Source: Cladorhizidae sp. MBARI D1340-BT2 (lineage: Eukaryota; Porifera; Demospongiae; Poecilosclerida; Cladorhizidae). Taken from it: 64,000 nt of DNA. The stretch spans positions 16,292,390 to 16,356,389 of the forward strand of contig JAQNBH010000002.1 in assembly GCA_028752905.1 (NCBI GenBank), read 5' to 3'. A program made the translations under genes and the position numbers. This document shows positions 527-25,864 of the stretch, in pieces. Position 1 is the first letter of the stretch. Each line of letters begins with the position of its first letter. Below the pieces are notes generated by a model. The model was not told the origin of the DNA. It did no database searches and saw nothing but the letters and a program-made list of their open reading frames with translations.

Positions 527-2075
527 GTCCTATTAATGACTGTCTCTGTTGATAGGTAGAGGGTCCTGTTAATGACTGTCTGTATTGAAAGGAGGGTTCT
601 GTTAATGACTATCTATATTGATAGGTAGAGGGTCCTGTTAATTACTGTCTCTATTGATAGTCCTATTAATGACTGTCTGTATTGATATGTAGAGGGTCCT
701 GACTCCTGTTAGTGACTGTCTATGGATAGGTAGAGGGTCCTATTAATGACTGTCTGTATTGAAAGGAGCGTTCTGTTAATGACTATCTATATTGATAGGT
801 AGAGGGTCCTGTTAATGACTGTTTATTGATATGTAGAGGGTCCTATTAATGACTCTGTAATGATAGGAGAGTTCTGTTAATGACTATCTATATTGATAGG
901 TAGAGGGTCCTGTTAATGACTGTCTAGGTAAAGTGTCCTGTTAATGACTGTCTCTGTTGATAGGTAGACGGTCCTGTTAATTACCGTCTCTATGTATAGG
1001 TAGAGGGTCCTGTTAATGACTGTCTGTATTGAAAGGAGGGTTCTGTTAATGACTATCTATATTGATAGGTAGAGGGTCCTATTAATGACTGTCTGTATTG
1101 ATAGGTAAAGTGTCCTGTTAATTACTGTCTCTATGGATAGGTAAAGGGGCCTGTTAATAACTACATGTATATTGATAGGTAAAGGGTCCAGTTAATGACT
1201 GTCTCTATTGATAGGTAGAGGGTCCTGTTAATTACTGTCTCTATGGATAGGTAAAGGGGCCTGTTAATAACTACATGTATATTTAATGACTCTGTAATGA
1301 TAGGAGAGTTCTGTTAATGACTATCTATATTGATAGGTAGAGGGTCCTGTTAATGACTGTCTAGGTAAAGTGTCCTGTTAATGACTGCATCTGTTGATAG
1401 GTAGACGGTCCTGTTAATTACCGTCTCTATGTATAGGTAGAGGGTCCTGTTAATGACATGTCTGTATTGAAAGGAGGGTTCTGTTAATGACTATCTATAT
1501 TGATAGGTAGAGGGTCCTATTAATGACTGTCTGTATTGATAGGTAAAGTGTCCTGTTAATGACTGTCTCTATTGATAGGTAGAGGGTCCTGTTAATTACT
1601 GTCTCTATGGATAGGTAAAGGGGCCTGTTAATAACTACATGTATATTGATAGGTAAAGGGTCCAGTTAATGACTGTCTCTATTGATAGGTAGAGGGTCCT
1701 GTTAATTACTGTCTCTATGGATAGGTAAAGGGGCCTGTTAATAACTACATGTATATTGATAGGTAAAGGGTCCAGTTAATGACTGTCTCTATTGATAGGT
1801 AGATGGTCCTGTTAATTACTGTCTCTATGGATAGGTAAAGGGGCCTGTTAATAACTACATGTATATTGATAGGTAAAGGGTCCAGTTAATGACTGTCTCT
1901 ATTGATAGGTAGAGGGTCCTGTTAATTACTGTCTCTATGGATAGGTAAAGGGGCCTGTTAATAACTACATGTATATTGATAGGTAAAGGGTCCAGTTAAT
2001 GACTGTCTCTATTGATAGGTACTGGTAGATGGTCCTGTCTATATTGATAGGTAAAGGGTCCTATTAATGACTTTT
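527..2075. repeat. Minisatellite, about 36-bp unit
   Basis: Repeats of gttaatgactgtctctattg followed by ataggtagagggtcct, with many variants. From about 1190 to 2010 three units form a higher-order block of about 110 bp (with aaaggggcctgttaataact variants) repeated at least four times. Confidence 0.95.
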
Positions 2076-2676
2076 TGTACATACTTTTTTCTTGTTTATT
2101 TTATTTAAGTCGATCACTCTCCCACAAGAGATTTTGTTAATCGTTGATGTCGTTTACCATGGTAGAATATGTCAATGTAATATACAGCATCACACATAGA
2201 GATGTGGGTCATAAGTAGTTACCTGAGGGCCTCTGCTGTTAGATCTTGTCACAAGAGTAAGTTTCTGAAACCATCTGGTGGTCACTTCTTAGTAGAGAAA
2301 GATTGCGACTGCTTCTAGCTCAGCTCAAGACTCGATGAGCGGGTTTGCTTCGTTGGAAAGCTTTTACCTTTTTTGGTGATTTTGCATTGAATTGCATTGA
2401 ATCAAGAAACGGATTTGGTCGTCGCCATGCATTCAATAATTTTGGAGTCGTCTTGTAGCACAGATATGACAAGCAGACAAATTCCATGCAAGTTGTGGGA
2501 GGGGGGGGGGGGGAGAAGTAGGTCGATGATACAAGATCTTGAAGACAAATTTTACGAGGAGGGGGTGGGGGTTAGCGTTTTATTGGGCCGCCTTTTACTA
2601 TCTTCGCGAAGTATTCGAAGCACGTTGAAAGTGTATTTGAAGTAATTGGAACTGGCTGGCGCCTGCCTCTGTTCAG

Positions 2677-2700
2677 AACACACAGAGAGAAGCTACCATG
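2677..2700 (+). CDS. ABCD3: Possible 24-nt upstream micro-exon of ABCD3
   Basis: A strong pyrimidine tract and CAG acceptor end at 2676, and ATG is followed by the donor GTGAGT at 2701. The 24 nt keep phase 0 and would encode NTQREATM ahead of the exon at 3934, which also starts in phase 0. The N-terminal linker of the family is poorly conserved, so the peptide cannot confirm it. Only cDNA would settle this. Confidence 0.25.
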
Positions 2701-2805
2701 GTGAGTTGCTAGCTGAGGGCTGAGGTGTAAACCTTGCTTCTTTTGTGTTTCTTGTGGTCCACCATTTTAGAAAAACTAATTTGTTGTTTCTGTGAGATTC
2801 CTGTC

Positions 2806-3222
2806 GTAGTGAAGTTTATGACATCAGTGAAGTTGGCTATGACATCAGTTGATGTTGGCTATGACATCAGTTGAAGTTGGCTATGACATCAGTGAAGTTG
2901 GCTATGACATCAGTGTAGTTGGCTATGACATCACTTGAAGTTGGCTATGACATCAGTGAAGTTGGCTATGACATCAGTTGAAGTTAGCTATGACATCAGT
3001 TGAAGTTAGCTATGACATCACTTGAAGTTGGCTATGACATCAGTGAAGTTGGCTATGACATCAGTTGAAGTTAGCTATGACATCACTTGAAGTTGGCTAT
3101 GACATCAGTGAAGTTGGCTATGACATCAGTTGAAGTTGGCTATGACATCACTTGAAGTTGGCTATGACATCAGTGAAGTTGGCTATGACATCACTTGAAG
3201 TTGGCTGTGACATTAGTTAACC
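2806..3222. repeat. Minisatellite, 22-23-bp unit
   Basis: Unit gaagttggctatgacatcag plus t or tt, about 18 copies. Alternating 22- and 23-bp forms make short higher-order blocks. Confidence 0.95.
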
Positions 3223-3933
3223 AAAGAGTCTAGGCAGTTAATATATATATTATATTATTTTTAAAAAATGGAAAATTACAGTGGCGAAGATCAAGGGGGA
3301 AATGTCTCCCTTTACCATACTATAGATAGATAGATAGATATTCCATCATATAACAGCAGGGATATCCGCACCGAAATTGGAACGTATCCTTTTTGTTGAA
3401 CGAAACTGATATTTACACATGACACAACAAGCATAGCAAGTAACTATGGTGCTTTTCTTAAATAGAGGAGGACTCGGGGCAGCCTCGCCAGCAAACTGCT
3501 TGTGTAATGCAAGCTCTAGCATGGGAAGTTTGTTGGTAACATCCCCACGTTCCATGATTTGGAACCTATTGTCGGGAACATGAAAAAGCACCTGCGCTGG
3601 TATAGCCCTAAAATTAATAAATGGCTGGCGATGCTGACTTCTGGGGCGTCATGTCAATGTTTGAAAAATCAATCACGCACTACCAACTCCTGGTCCTGAT
3701 TCCAATTCCGAATATATTAAGTTAGTGGGTTTCATTCCTGGTAGTGTTGAGTGTGTAGAGGACAGACAAGAGAGAGAGAGCATGAGCTTTATAGGAGCTG
3801 CTGTTGTAAGTTCTTGTGTATGTTCGTTGTCAGGCGCAATCCCTTCACTGTTGGGTTTGGCCTGGCGACTGCAGTAGTTATGCAGTGGCATTCGGTTGCT
3901 ATTGCCTGATTTTTGTTTGATAATTATTTCCAG
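3223..3933. other. Unannotated upstream sequence
   Basis: Apart from a short (ATAG)n near 3325 I see no coding or mobile features. It would lie in an intron of ABCD3 if the 2677 micro-exon is real. Confidence 0.4.
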
Positions 3934-3986
3934 AAAGTGTCTTCGAGAAAAAACGAGAAAGCTGCTGTCGACATGAGGTTCATCAG
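3934..3986 (+). CDS. ABCD3: ABCD3 exon: N-terminal basic linker
   Basis: It follows acceptor TTTCCAG and precedes donor GTATGT. It encodes [17 protein letters not shown] and ends with two bases of an Arg codon completed by the next exon. The ...[12 protein letters not shown](R) stretch lines up with the charged linker and start of the first conserved helix in ABCD3. Confidence 0.75.
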
Positions 3987-6900
3987 GTATGTACATGTGA
4001 CGTCTGCACGTGCCACTAAATGTCAGTGTTTTGCGTGATTCTCAGGCATTATCGTTTTCTCCAGTGAGCTGTACAAGTGTGATTCACTCATACCTCAGTG
4101 TGTATATGCAGTACTGTATGTATACATGTGTGTATATGTATTTGTATGCATCTATATTACCGTAGGAGGTCACTTATCTGAATGCATTGGGGTCGGAGAA
4201 GGTGTTCGGGTAACTGAAATGTTCGGGTAACTTAATTTCGGTGTTGAAGGTCTCCAGCTTGTCCTTCTTCCTAAAAAAAAATAATAATAAAAAACCCGTG
4301 GAAAGTCGAGATTGCAAGTTGTGTTCACCTCCTCTCTACACAGCTAAACGTCTCCCACTCTTCACAAAATCACAGATCTTCATCTTACTGTGCTATTAAG
4401 GACGGGCCTTCTTTGTCTCTTGAACAGGTCTAGTCTTCTCTAGAGCTGCTCCGATACGGTGCAAGAATGTTCTGGAATAGCCTCTGCATTGGGAGAACGA
4501 TATATATACATTACAATAACCTTCTCAATAATCACTTGAAATTGTGTTCTCTCGACGTTGAGATGCTCTAGCCTTCATAGGAATAATGATGAAGGTTAGA
4601 GCATCTAGTCGAAACATCGAGAGAACACAATTTCAAGTGATTATTGAGAAGGTTATTAAAATCCCCTTCTCAATCATCAACTTCAATTTTTATTCACTCG
4701 ACGTTTCGACTAGATGCTCTAGTCTTCATCAGGAATATGTCAACTGAGAGTCCCTTTTACGCATGTGCAGAAGAACTGTTCCTGCGAAATAAGAAGTACA
4801 CTGATTGATGCCTGCCTTGACCCTTGATGTGGGCGTGGCTACGATTGCAGTGGGCAGGGCTATCTGTAGCATTCGGTTGATCGACGTACTCAGGTCACTG
4901 AAGTTCGGATGATGGACTTCCTATTTTAATATATGTTGACATGTACATGTTCATGCTCACATGTACATGTGTGGTGTATGCCAGTACATGCTTGCATGCC
5001 ATATTGCTTAGATTAGAATGTCCGTGTTCTACTCACTTCATGAGCTGTGTGTGCTACTAGAGGACACACCCTGTCATTTGAACATGACTAAAGGCCTGCT
5101 TGCAATGTGGTTGCAACAAGATTGCACGAGCTCAAGCTGACAATTATTGATGATCTGTTGCTAAATGCGTAACACTCCAGTGCGTAAAGCTGGAGTATAT
5201 TTTTTTCTCCCTTCTTTTTTCCCCTTCTTTTTTCTTCTTTTTTTCCCTTCTTTTTTTTCCCTTCTTTCTTTTTCTTCTTTTTTTTGCCCTTCTTTTCTTT
5301 TCTTCTTTCTTCCACTTCTTTTTTTCCCTTCTTTTTTCTTCTTCTTTTTTTCCCTTCTTTTTTTCCCTTCTTTTTTTTCCTTCTTTCTTTTTCTTCTTTT
5401 TTTGCCTCTTTTCTTCTTTCTTCCACTTTCTTTTTTCCCTTCTTTTTCCCCTTCATTTTTCCCCTTCTTTTCTTCTTTTTTTCTTCTTTTTCCCCTTTCA
5501 TTTGTCTTATCAAAAGAAGCACGACATTTCACTCTTTTCAAACGTTATCATATTCTTAATTTGACAAAAGAAAAACAATTACTGGATGTCTTTATGGAAT
5601 TTGGCAGTGTTTGTGCTCAGGCCCGTATCCTCTGTCCTAGTTTTCCATCTTCTTCATAGGTTGCTTGGGAAGGGATCATCGTTGTCAGGCTCTTAACGTC
5701 TCTTTCCTGTCGAGTTGGGTCGTCTCGCTGGCGATGCTTCCTGCCACACTCTCTGCTACGTTCTTTCCCGGGCTTTAAACGGTGAATGCTGATCATGTAG
5801 CCCATCTGTCTCCACTGAAAAGCCTCCATGTTTTTAAGGATTTCCTGCTGACCTGGTCTAATTGAGGGCGGGGAATATTTAGTTTCGAGATACTGTACTA
5901 AATAGTGCGCTGACTAATCGTGGGCGTGTTCTAATGAGGGGGAGGGGGGTATGGTCTAACCGAGGACTTATACGTATATGTAGAATGTGCATGTATGTCT
6001 ACATGTACTCATACTAGTAGTGACTGAGTGCAAGGCTTTGAATGGCGAGCAGAGAAGGAGAGCGAAACAAAAAAAGTTTTAATTTGAAATCCCTGCATAT
6101 TGTTGGGTTACATTGCTCCAGCCACGTGTCCTTGCCTTAGTGGAGCAGACGGCCATTTATTTGTACACTGTTGATGTCATTATGATGTAATGCTTGTGTT
6201 GTCATGTGGCCAAGAGCTGTGTGTATTGATGGGTGCCTTACACAATCCCAGCTGCTGTGAGGTCGAGCAGCCTCATGCCCTGCAACATTGTGGGATGGCA
6301 GATTTATGGAACAGAAGTGTGCTGTGTTAGTGTTGGCTGTGGGGGAGTTTTGGTGAGAGTCCTAGGAAGCTGCTTCCCTTGAAGATAGAAAGCTGTTTCT
6401 GCAGCTAAGAGTGAGGTCATCAGGAAGTGCTCTCTGTAGGAATTCTCCGGAATTCTAGTGGGAAGACCTTGCAGAAGCTGTTAAAATGATGTAGTTTGCA
6501 CTCTTGGCACTGTATAATGTGTTCAGTATGCTCTCCTCATTAGCACATCACTCCTCTATTGACTTGCCAGACATGCATCAGCCTATGTATGCTAACTATG
6601 TAGCCAGTTCTCTCTGTCCACAGAGAGCATCAGTCCCATCTTTATCTCACCATGACTGATAATGGTTTCTGCATCATGATAGGATACCTCCATAGTTACA
6701 GCATGATAGGGTACTCCATAGTTACAGCATGATAGAGTACCTCCATAGTTACAGCATGATAGGGTACCTCCATAGTTACAGCATGATAGGGTACCTCCAT
6801 AGTTACAGCATGATAGGGTACCTCCATAGTTACAGCATGATAGGATACCTCCATAGTTACAGCATGATAGAGTACCTCCATAGTTACAGCATGATAGGGT

Positions 6901-20065: not shown

Positions 20066-23000
20066 ATAGATTTCTCTAGTCAACAACCTGCTGAAGGTAA
20101 GTGCATGTTGCTGTTTTTCTTTTAAGCAATAATCTGTTTTGTTTTTGATGAGGAGTATTTCACAGAGGGACGGAGGGGAAGGTGATAGTGGCACTAGCTT
20201 CCTTTCTCCCCCATGAGTTTTATACCACAATCCTAATTGACGGAGATGTAGACCTTTAAATATTTTTTAAAAAATTGCGAATTTAAAAATGTTATTATTT
20301 TATTATTGTTGTTATTATTGTTGTTGTTGTTGTTGTTGTTATTATTTTGGGCCTCTTGTGTAAATGTATATACATTAGTTATAATACCTGGTAAAATAAT
20401 GGGATGAGATAGAGTCTGACGAAAGAGGCACTAGACAGAATATTCCAATTTATATATATATCCGGTCAAGAACGCAGAATCTCCTCAGATTGGAGCCTGA
20501 ATCAACTCATAAATCCATCCCTGACAAAAGATATGGTTGCCTGATGGCAGAACCAAGCATTAGCAGACACAGAAGAGTACATGCGTGTCTTGAGGTCAAT
20601 CTCATCAACTAATTTTTTGTTATCGTGCATTAAAACTTTCCTCAATTAGTGCTAGACTTCACACCCTCTCATATGTCATGTATACTCAACCTACTGCTGT
20701 TGGTGTTGTGATATTATCTGTTGCTGTTGGTGTTGTGATACTATCTGTTGCTGTTGGTGTTGTGATACTATCTGTTGCTGTTGGTGTTGTGATACTATCT
20801 GCTGCTGGGCCAGGTCAGCATTACTTTCGTTACGACTTTTCAGCTTGTCAAACCTGTCACTCTGGCATGCATCAACTTATCAACCCAAACTAAGTTTGTT
20901 TATCAAAGACATAGTTAGTTCTTGTTGCACGCCAGGTTTTATTGAAAAAATTCCAAACGGTCTAGCAGCTAGATATTAATGAGTGCCCGTTACTTTCGTT
21001 ACGAATTTTGGACATAAAAAATTGTCTTCAAAGTTCGTTTGTGAATCCTAGAAAAAAGGCTCCTTCAATTTTTTTGATTTTCAATTATGTCTTACAGAAT
21101 GTAGTTGACTATCAATTCCCCTGGTTTATTTGTTACATGTTCAACGATAATGGGTGGACATCACCCATTATACTAAAAAGTGACTGTTACTTTCGTTACG
21201 TTACTTTTGATGCAAGTATTGATGGGAATGTGTTGCACTTTTATACATAATTATTGGATTCCAACACCAAATTACTTAAAAGTTTAAATACATTTATATT
21301 TACATAAAGATAATGTACAAAACATCACTGTGTGTGGGGGGAGAGGGGGTGCAGCAAGATGGACTGCAAGGTTGCATGAATGAGGAGGGGGTGAGACAAA
21401 GGTGGTTGCAAGGTGCATGAGCTGGCAGGGGGTGAGGAGGGGATGGTATAATATTGATCTGAAAGTTTGGTCACAAATTTAGTTAGTTATGTTCCACTCC
21501 TCAAGACATTTAACTATCTCCTTTTCATCACTGTCACTGAGAGTAACAAACCGGCTATAGTTGCTGATAGGAGCTGGTGGGCTAAGTCTGCAGAGAATGT
21601 CCTCTCTAGGTACTGGAAGTCGGTCATGTTTTGTAGGCCAGTTCCACCTATCCAGCCCACAACTCTTCATAAATGTGATGACAACATGAGTAGGGGAGCT
21701 TTGTACCACCTCGCCAATCCAGGCCTTCCTATCGTGCACTGCTGCCAAGAACTCTCCAGCTTTTAATTCAGATACTATAAAATTTTCACCAACTTCCACC
21801 TCCATCTCCATGTCTTGCTTCTTCTGTTGCTGGTTTGGGACAGAAAACTCCTGTGTCAGCTGAGAGTGTACGACCATCCCGTCAATATTGCGCAGGCAAT
21901 GATAGCCACGTATTCCAGCTACTGCTGGAGATGCATCCCAGAAAGCTTGCGTGAAGCCAATGTCATAATTTGACTTGTTGATATCTGCTTCATTCATCAC
22001 TGTAACCTCCACCGTCATCATATTAGATGCAGCTGCAGCGAATGATGAAGCATCCCTAACAAGCACCTGCCATGCCTTCACCCTGTTGTGGACATGCCGC
22101 TTTACACTGCCACCAGTCCCGTCAACTGGGCCTTTGCCATGCGAAGTTGCAAAGAAGTTCCAGGTGATGCTGAGGCCATGTGCCTCCTCAAGCTTCTGCA
22201 ACGCATTTACAATAAATCGGCTCTTGAACTGAGCTGATGTACCGTCGGACCAGATTGACAATTTAGTTATATCATCTGGTAGTCGGCTGAGGAGATTGTT
22301 CATATATGGGAGGATGGACCACTTCGAGTGATCAGTAGAATCTGAACAGATGACACCACTGTGGTGTTCTCCCCCGTACCACAATGAGTGGTGAACAGAG
22401 AGACAGGGCTGTGGCCCCAATGTGCTGACTGTATCTCATCTTGTTAGATGCACTCAAAATTCTCCGAAAAGTCAACTTGAAGTAGTGCATGAAATTTGTT
22501 GAAGTCAGGAGAAGTTGCTTCTGCATCTGCACGCTCTATGTTGTAGCTCTCGGCTTGAGCTCGCTTTACAAGGCTGTGGATCAGGAACTGGGAAGAAGTT
22601 TGAGAAGGTGCTGTTTGAGGTCCTCTGTTATCCCATCATGTTGGACTTTGTGCAACCTTTCATTGCCGTCTTTTCCCCATGACAACCAGGTCACTGCTTT
22701 CTCAACCATCACCACTAAATCATGTTGCTCCAGGAAGAGCTGGCCGTTCTCCACTCCTCACATTTGCCAAGCCAACACTCTGTCTTAGGGTTCTTGCACA
22801 CCCAGCTGTCTGGGGTTTTAGAACTATACTTCTCCAATGCTGGCTCCAACTTGTGGAATGCATCAAGTGCAAGTATGATGTCCTCGTGGTACTGGCAAAC
22901 ACAGTCATTCTGTGGAGTCAGACTTGAATATAGGACATGAGGTGGGTAGACTAGAACTTTTAAGTCAAATCTGAACATCGGGGTACTGTGCCAAAGAGAG

Positions 23001-25864
23001 GCCACGAGTCTCTTTCAGCGTACACACCAAATGGCGTGATTGTTTCTTTTCGCCAGCATGAGTAGTTGCTCGGGCGTCTTTGCGACCTGTTTGCAACGTT
23101 AATGGCCTGATCTCCCTTAACAGTTGTGCCAGATCCCCATCTTCATATGTACATATGTCTAATTTTACGTTACTTTCGTTACAAGCTTACCTTCCACTAC
23201 TTTTAAGTTATTTTCGTTACGTTACTTTCGTTACAAACCTTTGAACTGAAATAAACAAAAATTTGTTCCTGCGATCTTTACCAAAATTTTGGTGTAGATG
23301 AGTGACATTGTTGGGAAGATTATATCTAACTTTTATGAAGTTAGGTTTAGAACTCCATGAGCAAAGGGAACTTCTTGAAGTTGAGCGTTACTTTCGTTAC
23401 ATAAAAACATCGGGTTTGAAATTAACGTGCAATACTCGGGTAGATAGCTCTGAGCCAAAAATTATTCTAGATATTGGTAGACCTTTAAAATCCCCACACA
23501 AAAAGTAACACATAAGTGTAATATCTTTATGGTATCATATATTATAACATTCAATTTTTCCCCTCGAAATTACAGTTAAATTTTAACTCAACTTTCAAAC
23601 ACTGCTGTACTGTGTGTATGTTAGATATCCACATAAAACCAACTTTATTAAAGGTCCCAAGGAGTGTATTTTTAGGTTCATAAAAATTTTGGTCCCTACG
23701 ACAAAATATTTTTTTAGCTTTCCATGTCATGATTTTGTGACCTGGCCCTGCTGTTGGTGTTGTGATACTATCTGTTGCTGTTGGTGTTGTGATACTATCT
23801 GCTGTTGATGGTGTTGTGATACTATCTGTTGTTGGTGGTGTTGTGATACTATCTGTTGTTGATGGTGTTGTGATACTATCTGTTGCTGTTGGTGTTGTGA
23901 TACTATCTGTTGCTGTTGGTGTTGTGATACTATCTGTTGCTGTTGGTGTTGAGATACTATCTGTTGCTGTTGGTGTTGTGATACTATCTGTTGCTGTTGG
24001 TGTTGAGATACTATATGTTGTTGGTGGTGTTGTGATACTATCTGTTGCTGTTGGTGTTGTGATACTATCTGTTGCTGTTGGTGTTGTGATACTATCTGCT
24101 GTTGTTGGTGTTGTGATACTATCTGTTGCTGTTGGTGTTGTGATACTATCTGTTGCTGTTGGTGTTGTGATACTATCTGTTGCTGTTTTTGGTGTTGTGA
24201 TACTATCTGTTGTTGTTGGTGTTGTGATACTATCTGTTGCTGTTGATGTTGTGATACTATCTGTTGCTGTTGGTGTTGTGATACTATCTGTTGCTGTTGG
24301 TGTTGTGATACTATCTGTTGTTGTTGTTGAGATACTATCTGCTGTTGTTGGTGTTGTGATACTATCTGTTGCTGTTGGTGTTGTGATACTATCTGTTGGT
24401 GTTGTGATACTATCTGTTGGTGTTGTGATACTATCTGTTGCTGTTTTTGGTGTTGTGATACTATCTGTTGTTGTTGGTGTTGTGATACTATCTGTTGCTG
24501 TTGGTGTTGTGATACTATCTGCTGTTGTTGTTGTTGTGATACTATCTGTTGCTGTTGATGTGATACTATCTGTTGCTGTTGATGTGATACTATCTGTTGC
24601 TGTTGGTGTTGTGATACTATCTGCTGTTGTTGTTGTTGTGATACTATCTGTTGCTGTTGGTGTTGTGATACTATCTGTTGCTGTTGGTGTTGTGATACTA
24701 TCTGTTGTTGGTGGTGTTGTGATACTATCTGTTGTTGATGGTGTTGTGATACTATCTGTTGCTGTTGGTGTTGTGATACTATCTGTTGTTGGTGGTGTTG
24801 TGATACTATCTGTTGTTGATGGTGTTGTGATACTATCTGTTGCTGTTGGTGTTGTGATACTATCTGCTGCTGTTGGTGTTGTGATACTATCTGTTGCTGT
24901 TGGTGTTGTGATACTATCTGTTGCTGTTGGTGTTGTGATACTATCTGTTGTTGGTGGTGTTGTGATACTATCTGTTGTTGATGGTGTTGTGATACTATCT
25001 GTTGCTGTTGATGTTGTGATACTATCTGTTGCTGTTGTTGGTGTGATACTATCTGTTACTGTTGGTGTTGTGATACTATCTGCTGTTGTTGGTGTTGTGA
25101 TACTATCTGTTGCTGTTGGTGTTGTGATACTATCTGTTGCTGTTGGTGTTGTGATACTATCTGTTGCTGTTGGTGTTTTGATACTATCTGTTGCTGTTGG
25201 TGTTGTGATACTATCTGTTGCTGTTGGTGTTGTGATACTATCTACTGTTGTTGGTGTTGTGATACTATCTGTTGCTGTTGGTGTTGTGATACTATCTGTT
25301 GCTGTTGGTGTTGTGATACTATCTGTTGCTGTTGGTGTTGTGATACTATCTGTTGCTGTTGGTGTTGTGATGCTATCTGTTGCTGTTGATGTGATACTAT
25401 CTGTTGCTGTTGGTGTTGTGATACTATCTGTTGCTGTTGGTGTTGTGATACTATCTACTGCTGTTGGTGTTGTGATACTATCTGTTGCTGTTGGTGTTGT
25501 GATACTATCTGTTGCTGTTGGTGTTGTTATACTATCTGTTGCTGTTGGTGTTGTGATGCTGCCTGTTGTTGTTGTTGTTGTTGTTGTTGTGATGCTCTCT
25601 GTTGTTGCTGGTGGTGATGTATCTTTAGTATGGTCTGAACGAGCTAAAGCTGAGGTTCCGTACGAGGCTGTCCCAGTACCTCTATAGCAAATATATGAGG
25701 TGAGGGCTCCATAGCACTACTGTATGTACCATATGCATGTGTGTGCAGTGCTCCTGCCCGAAACCATTGTCTAGTAATAGTAGTAGTAGTAGTAGTATTC
25801 GGTTATTATTATTAGTAGTAGTAGTAGTATTCGGTTATTAGTAATTGTAGCAGTAGTGTTGTTG

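Follow-up and report, generated by a model that had tools for sequence, protein, structure and literature searches.

The question raised by a window of 64,000 nucleotides from the sponge Cladorhizidae sp. MBARI D1340-BT2 (contig JAQNBH010000002.1; the window is this whole stretch) is what kind of mobile element occupies positions 20807..23748, where a broken gene lies between short terminal inverted repeats (TIRs), and whether the protein family of that gene acts as its transposase. We consider it highly probable that the element is a nonautonomous, deleted copy of a cut-and-paste transposon, and that its longer relatives encode a transposase of about 700 amino acids (aa) with three aspartates (DDD), which acts via spaced sites. 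This reading is built on the ends, the target site duplications (TSDs), the copies, the geometry of the sites, the conserved residues, the predicted fold, and a deletion and a stop codon that the copies have in common; it would entail binding of the motifs by the protein, a catalytic role for the aspartates, a cutting chemistry, and mobilization of the window element's own family, family A, by other copies. The limits and surroundings of the element are as follows.

20807..23748, reverse strand: whole transposon copy of family A, 2,942 bp, from the ends and the phase analysis.
20807..20817, forward strand: TIR GGGCCAGGTCA at the gene 3′ end, 11 bp, from the comparison of 15 copies.
23738..23748, reverse strand: TIR GGGCCAGGTCA at the gene 5′ end, 11 bp, from the same comparison.
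20803..20806, no strand: left TSD, TGCT, from the copy comparison and the minisatellite phase.
23749..23752, no strand: right TSD, TGCT, from the same two sources.
20695..20802, no strand: left part of the 27-bp minisatellite that was the insertion target, from the tandem-repeat scan and the phase.
23753..25581, no strand: right part of this minisatellite, likewise.

The element gene is read on the reverse strand, so that its 5′ end is at the right. That the window element is a DNA transposon, as the first-pass annotation had claimed, was confirmed by its copies. The motif TTACTTTCGTTAC, which recurs inside the element, occurs 379 times in the 857-Mb source genome, compared with 117 times for the reversed control, and 19 regions of this genome were taken from among the motif places listed. 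Both ends (element positions 1 and 2942) were found in 14 of them, making 15 copies with the window, and the other five regions (L012, L013, L021, L022, and L025) hold partial copies. The TSD is an exact 4 bp in 11 of the 15 copies, has one mismatch in three (L016, L023, and L024), and is missing in L026. Divergence among 14 of the 15 is 1.2−5.4%, leaving out L028, an older relative (1680-6736) that is about 20−30% diverged in most aligned stretches and has similar ends, the TSD TAGG, and a tandem array inside.

The exact limits came from the comparison of the copies and fit the interrupted minisatellite, whose phase is best restored on removing 2,946 bases, i.e., the element plus 4 bp (26 of 27 positions, runner-up 15 of 27); the TSD of the window copy is therefore TGCT. 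The earlier extent of 20802..23753 had to be narrowed accordingly and the TIR set at 11 bp, while the inverted pair itself stood. Likewise, of the two duplications offered before, TGCT was retained and the 6-bp CTGCTG is ruled out, because 11 of the 15 copies have an exact 4-bp TSD and none has a longer one; CTGCTG appeared only because the local repeat contributes additional matching bases. Insertion within minisatellites is seen in several copies (window, 20807; L024, 841; L055, from a later search, 821), and in the latter two the best phase was again at the element plus 4 bp; L051, L040, and L046 are without a usable array for this check. The window itself is rich in minisatellites, with 64 partly overlapping tandem-repeat rows scoring at least 100, and arrays with 23-, 27-, 29-, and 37-bp units each exceed 1 kb.

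The gene between these ends is represented by several open pieces:

21476..23087, reverse strand: broken gene of the putative transposase, several frames of which match residues 193−718 of the relative P0001; the N-terminal part is missing.
21479..22435, reverse strand: longest of the open pieces (318 codons), carrying the second Asp in WSDG and the third in FFATSHGKGPVDG.
22444..22635, reverse strand: open piece with QVDFSENF (first Asp), from the open reading frame list and the comparison.

The DFSENF, WSDG, and FFATSHGKGPVDG blocks reported in a "decayed gene" are thus present on the reverse strand, spread over more than one frame, but decay falls short as a description, since an N-terminal stretch has also been deleted. 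Residues 1−192 of P0001 are unmatched in 14 of 14 family A copies, whereas L036 and L045, of the same family, retain about 960 and 700 bp of additional sequence that encodes N-terminal parts and enters at a single junction, element coding position 660/661. Furthermore, a stop near query residue 233 is common to 11 of these 14 copies, and none of the 14 scanned has an intact gene. The window copy is therefore nonautonomous and internally deleted, and was probably mobilized in trans; the abundant family A copies have the look of a deleted, broken subfamily that spread by using transposase from other copies.

The link between the protein and such ends extends beyond family A. P0001 has 83 matches in the source genome, and 30 loci (L029−L058) were examined with 1.5-kb flanks for an inverted pair starting with GGG and matching in at least 10 of 11 positions, together with an exact 4-bp TSD. 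Both features were found at 16 of the 30 loci, compared with 26 of 870 swapped-flank pairs, a control that includes same-family pairs. Three of the 16 (L032, L033, and L039) had already been counted as copies, and nine lie outside family A, in four other families:

Family A, 7 loci: ends GGGCCAGGTCA.
Family B, 2 loci: ends GGGCAAGGACA.
Family C, 1 locus: ends GGGCAATTCCATGC.
Family D, 2 loci: ends GGGCAATTCC.
Family E, 4 loci: ends GGGCCTGATCA / GGGCCCGATCA.

Two of the family E loci have the same TSD, AAAT, and may go back to a single event. Among the 14 loci without the two features, L040 has B ends and a TSD with one mismatch; L042 (582-4143) has CAG instead of GGG ends and a candidate 4-bp TSD, ATAA. 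Elements of families C−E are 3.3−3.7 kb long. L001, from a separate public record, has GGGCAATTCCAT as its two ends and no TSD; the protein of its 690-aa frame shares 31% identity with P0001 and 42% with the 699-aa frame of L043, and both frames are uninterrupted. L001 was the one relative among 98 pattern matches in GTDB genomes, a 4-kb contig in a bacterial metagenome-assembled genome, which we read as eukaryotic contamination; the viral, phage, and plasmid collections contained no relative. Many relatives of the protein thus lie between TIRs, and GGGC TIRs with exact 4-bp TSDs recur in five families.

The family consists of animal proteins, mostly of about 700 aa, and the host names are all animals among the matches listed (120 in each of two listings); Strongylocentrotus, Paramuricea, Styela, Patella, and Bacillus rossius are among these hosts. 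Asp occupies each of three positions in 74 of 74 aligned sequences (D400, D476, and D517 in P0001), and the predicted model places them at the expected catalytic positions of an RNase H core similar to that of retroviral integrases, so that the prediction agrees with the RNase H fold and the three Asp anticipated by the first-pass annotation; these residues would then be the catalytic triad. The best structural matches are retroviral integrase cores and IstA; the whole model had no Foldseek match at E ≤ 0.001 in the PDB or among viral models. The predicted architecture includes a helical N-terminus, a Cys/His-rich region that probably binds zinc, the RNase H core, and a C-terminal β barrel that we read as SH3-like, in an order resembling that of retroviral integrases. 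Retroviral integrases and IstA (IS21) differ in having only about 10% identity to the family, whose third residue is Asp and whose elements carry subterminal site arrays; no reverse transcriptase turned up here, although no search was aimed at one. Some relatives are fused to an Ulp1 peptidase domain (PF02902; P0082, residues 591−726; P0206; P0212), and one fish relative is annotated as sentrin-specific protease 2.

Sequence searches of Pfam and the PDB gave no confident match to a known family. With many relatives lying between TIRs, neither outcome that the first-pass annotation named as refuting its reading was thus obtained in the searches made. No Pfam match above the cutoff was found for the family core, and none at all for the four pieces of the window gene; among single relatives (sets of 7 and 10), only the Ulp1 domain of P0082 exceeded its own cutoff. 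The PDB returned two matches, with E 0.42 and 7.2, neither of them an integrase. For the 74 aligned relatives, the 25 of 56 Pfam families listed comprise no integrase family; the commonest of these weak matches is HAS-barrel (five members, best E 5.1e-4), and DUF7869 (PF25273) is matched by three relatives at E ≤ 1 (best E 5.5e-4). With at best 20 bits against a Pfam cutoff of 26, the latter does not support membership in DUF7869, yet this family is, weakly, the nearest sequence relative found: hhalign paired profile A1 with one DUF7869 frame from the same genome at E 1.4e-4 and a probability of 53%, bringing SDG, H, D, and KR into register. The DUF7869 copies read here differ in their longer TIRs, which lack GGGC, and in one candidate 6-bp TSD. 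DUF7869 looks like another mobile family of this genome, with 150 scored matches, many of them with open frames. Two copies of about 3.5 kb (L059, 1439-4940; L060, 1436-4888) share 98% identity across most of the sequence; they contain a 656-aa frame, and their ends match in inverted orientation for about 34 bp, with the candidate TSD CATATG, identified by eye, at L060; L059, L061, and L062 have flanks in common and represent one insertion.

A further property of these elements is the arrangement of the short motifs near their ends. As the first-pass annotation had noted, the window element contains six exact and one variant motif in two clusters. All lie on the forward strand, and seven such sites were reached in none of 100 shuffles (mean 0.04):

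20821..20833, forward strand: motif TTACTTTCGTTAC, 14 bp from the gene-3′ tip.
20990..21002, forward strand: motif TTACTTTCGTTAC, 183 bp from the gene-3′ tip.
21187..21199, forward strand: motif TTACTTTCGTTAC, 380 bp from the gene-3′ tip.
23170..23182, forward strand: motif TTACTTTCGTTAC, 566 bp from the gene-5′ tip.
23208..23220, forward strand: variant motif TTATTTTCGTTAC with one mismatch, 528 bp from the gene-5′ tip.
23222..23234, forward strand: motif TTACTTTCGTTAC, 514 bp from the gene-5′ tip.
23388..23400, forward strand: motif TTACTTTCGTTAC, 348 bp from the gene-5′ tip.

Of 13 further copies scanned, 12 have a tandem partner of the site at 21187..21199, placed 14 bp inward; that of the window, at about 21201-21213, is degenerate by eye. 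Each family has its own motif of about 13 bp, most of which we read as two GTNAC-like half-sites (coding strand):

Family A: GTAACGAAAGTAAC.
Family B: GTAACGTGCGTAA.
Family C: GTCACGGAGTGAC.
Family D: GTGACGGAAGTAC.
Family E: GTAACGGAGTTAC.
L001: GTGTTGGACGTAC.

When one element each of families A−E and L001 were compared (up to two mismatches, either strand), the sites fell at 13−16, 180−193, 367−380, and 389−402 bp from the gene-3′ tip and at 348−378, 514−528, 528−543, and 551−566 bp from the gene-5′ tip; every site lay within 700 bp of at least one tip. Hence, the relatives of the window element have motif clusters in common, with nearly equal spacing. On average, the nearest site of another family is 7.1 bp away, compared with 79.6 bp for random positions and 75.6 bp for shifted arrays, and 0 of 2,000 in either control reached this value. 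All eight sites are present only in D and L001; one is missing at the 3′ end of the window A copy, and one or two are missing at the 5′ end in B, C, and E. The motif of family B, unseen beforehand, was recovered when sought in windows predicted from the other families, with 1 (L031), 0 (L051), and 0 (L040) of 300 random placements being as good. L051 represents family B because it is the most complete B copy; L040 and L031 deviate at one or more sites, and the E copies L052, L056, and L057 are without some. For L042 the same test was not significant (56 of 300). Because DNA matches between the six representatives (E ≤ 1e-3) are nearly confined to the gene, except for 129 bp at the gene-5′ end, in which A and B agree to 71%, and a further 50 bp common to D and L001, plain similarity around the sites does not explain the geometry.

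These data suggest a mechanism in which transposase subunits would bind six to eight subterminal sites, mostly of two GTNAC-like half-sites each, at fixed distances of about 14, 182, 375, and 392 bp from the gene-3′ tip and about 360, 520, 540, and 555 bp from the gene-5′ tip. Judging from the geometry, the bound array may form an asymmetric synaptic complex, and its conserved spacing would tolerate changes of the motif. The triad would likely cut at the GGGC...GCCC tips, which would likely be joined to the target 4 bp apart, producing the 4-bp duplications. CACTA and hAT elements, with their subterminal repeats, and Mu and Tn7, with their end arrays, also have several transposase-binding repeats near their ends. 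The putative binding sites described here are similar in this respect; TSD lengths and ends are different, and here the spacing is kept across families with differing motifs. In the available text of the literature searched, which was queried for subterminal repeats only marginally, no such ruler of sites was found. We propose, tentatively and as something short of probable, that the elements represent an undescribed animal DDD superfamily with GGGC ends, a 4-bp TSD, and an asymmetric, fixed-geometry array of up to eight sites, the sequence of which varies by transposase lineage while the distances stay.

The position of the gene between TIRs agrees with the earlier claim that it encodes the transposase of an undescribed superfamily, but the novelty of the superfamily is not established, since DDD and a 4-bp TSD fit Sola. 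The Sola superfamily comprises DDD transposases with 4-bp TSDs, ranging over protists, plants, and bacteria; GRG is regarded as a Sola2 terminus, with which GGG would be compatible. It is quite conceivable, if not to be presumed, that the protein family already stands in Repbase as Sola, most likely Sola2, and would then be a new lineage of a described superfamily. In favor of this reading, the 4-bp TSD, the short TIRs, and the D/D/D residues of the present family match the Sola outline. As far as the available text of the report on dictyostelid Sola2 goes, those elements have 12−13-bp TIRs, 4-bp TSDs, an AWWT target, and a transposase of 888 aa (PMC3627910), the last compared with about 700 aa here, and no exact family A TSD (0 of 11) fits AWWT, although AAAT at two family E loci does. 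The animal hosts noted above also contrast with the wider range of Sola. All these points are descriptive, none being a test of sequence kinship; by description, Sola fits best, save for the AT-rich target of dictyostelid Sola2. The termini of Sola are not stated in the available text of PMC10294476, PMC4455052, PMC11071193, PMC5199201, PMC5753468, or PMC9783078.

Descent from a known integrase-like group (Ginger1/2, IS3EU/GingerRoot, IS481EU, or Polinton) is unlikely. It would account for the structural matches to retroviral integrase cores and IstA, and the 4-bp TSDs agree with those reported for Ginger1 and some IS481EU families (4 bp) and for Ginger2 (4−5 bp; PMC10045372, in the text available). 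On the other hand, the third residue is invariably Asp (74 of 74 sequences), and the integrase families are missing from the Pfam families listed. Ends of the type GGGC..GCCC speak against IS481EU, with TNT..AYA, and together with the 4-bp TSD also IS3EU/GingerRoot, with TA..TA (mostly GingerRoot) and 6 bp (PMC10045372). Other superfamilies were rejected on their targets, as far as the sources state them: Academ has a 3-bp TSD (PMC5199201), and the TTAA of piggyBac and Kolobok occurs in 0 of the 11 exact family A TSDs and 0 of the 16 qualifying loci.

Very unlikely is that the protein is a passenger gene in elements mobilized by another transposase. The lack of an intact gene in the family A copies, so that at least those seem to be trans-mobilized, would suit a passenger, but the same protein family, with its integrase-like core, lies between TIRs in families A−E and L001, and the frames of L043 and L001 are uninterrupted. 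Finally, that TIR, motifs, and gene are unconnected repeats brought together by chance can be practically dismissed: the 10-mer GGCCAGGTCA at both ends of the window element is alone weak evidence in 64 kb (five matches with at most one mismatch, equaled by 26 of 100 shuffles), but the same ends recur in 15 copies, mostly with 4-bp TSDs, and no control reached the site alignment.

With the reading as a DDD transposon, an animal protein family that is widespread but unnamed in Pfam gains a likely function, that of a transposase. If the fixed array is real, its transpososome would measure DNA distance over about 400−570 bp per end, perhaps on nucleosomes, as the step from 14 to 182 bp is about 168 bp; even if the family turns out to belong to Sola, its ruler of sites could be a novelty. 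If the geometry is conserved while the motif changes, these elements would offer a natural experiment on the coevolution of transposases and their sites, and a view of how a eukaryotic synaptic complex is assembled, possibly on chromatin.

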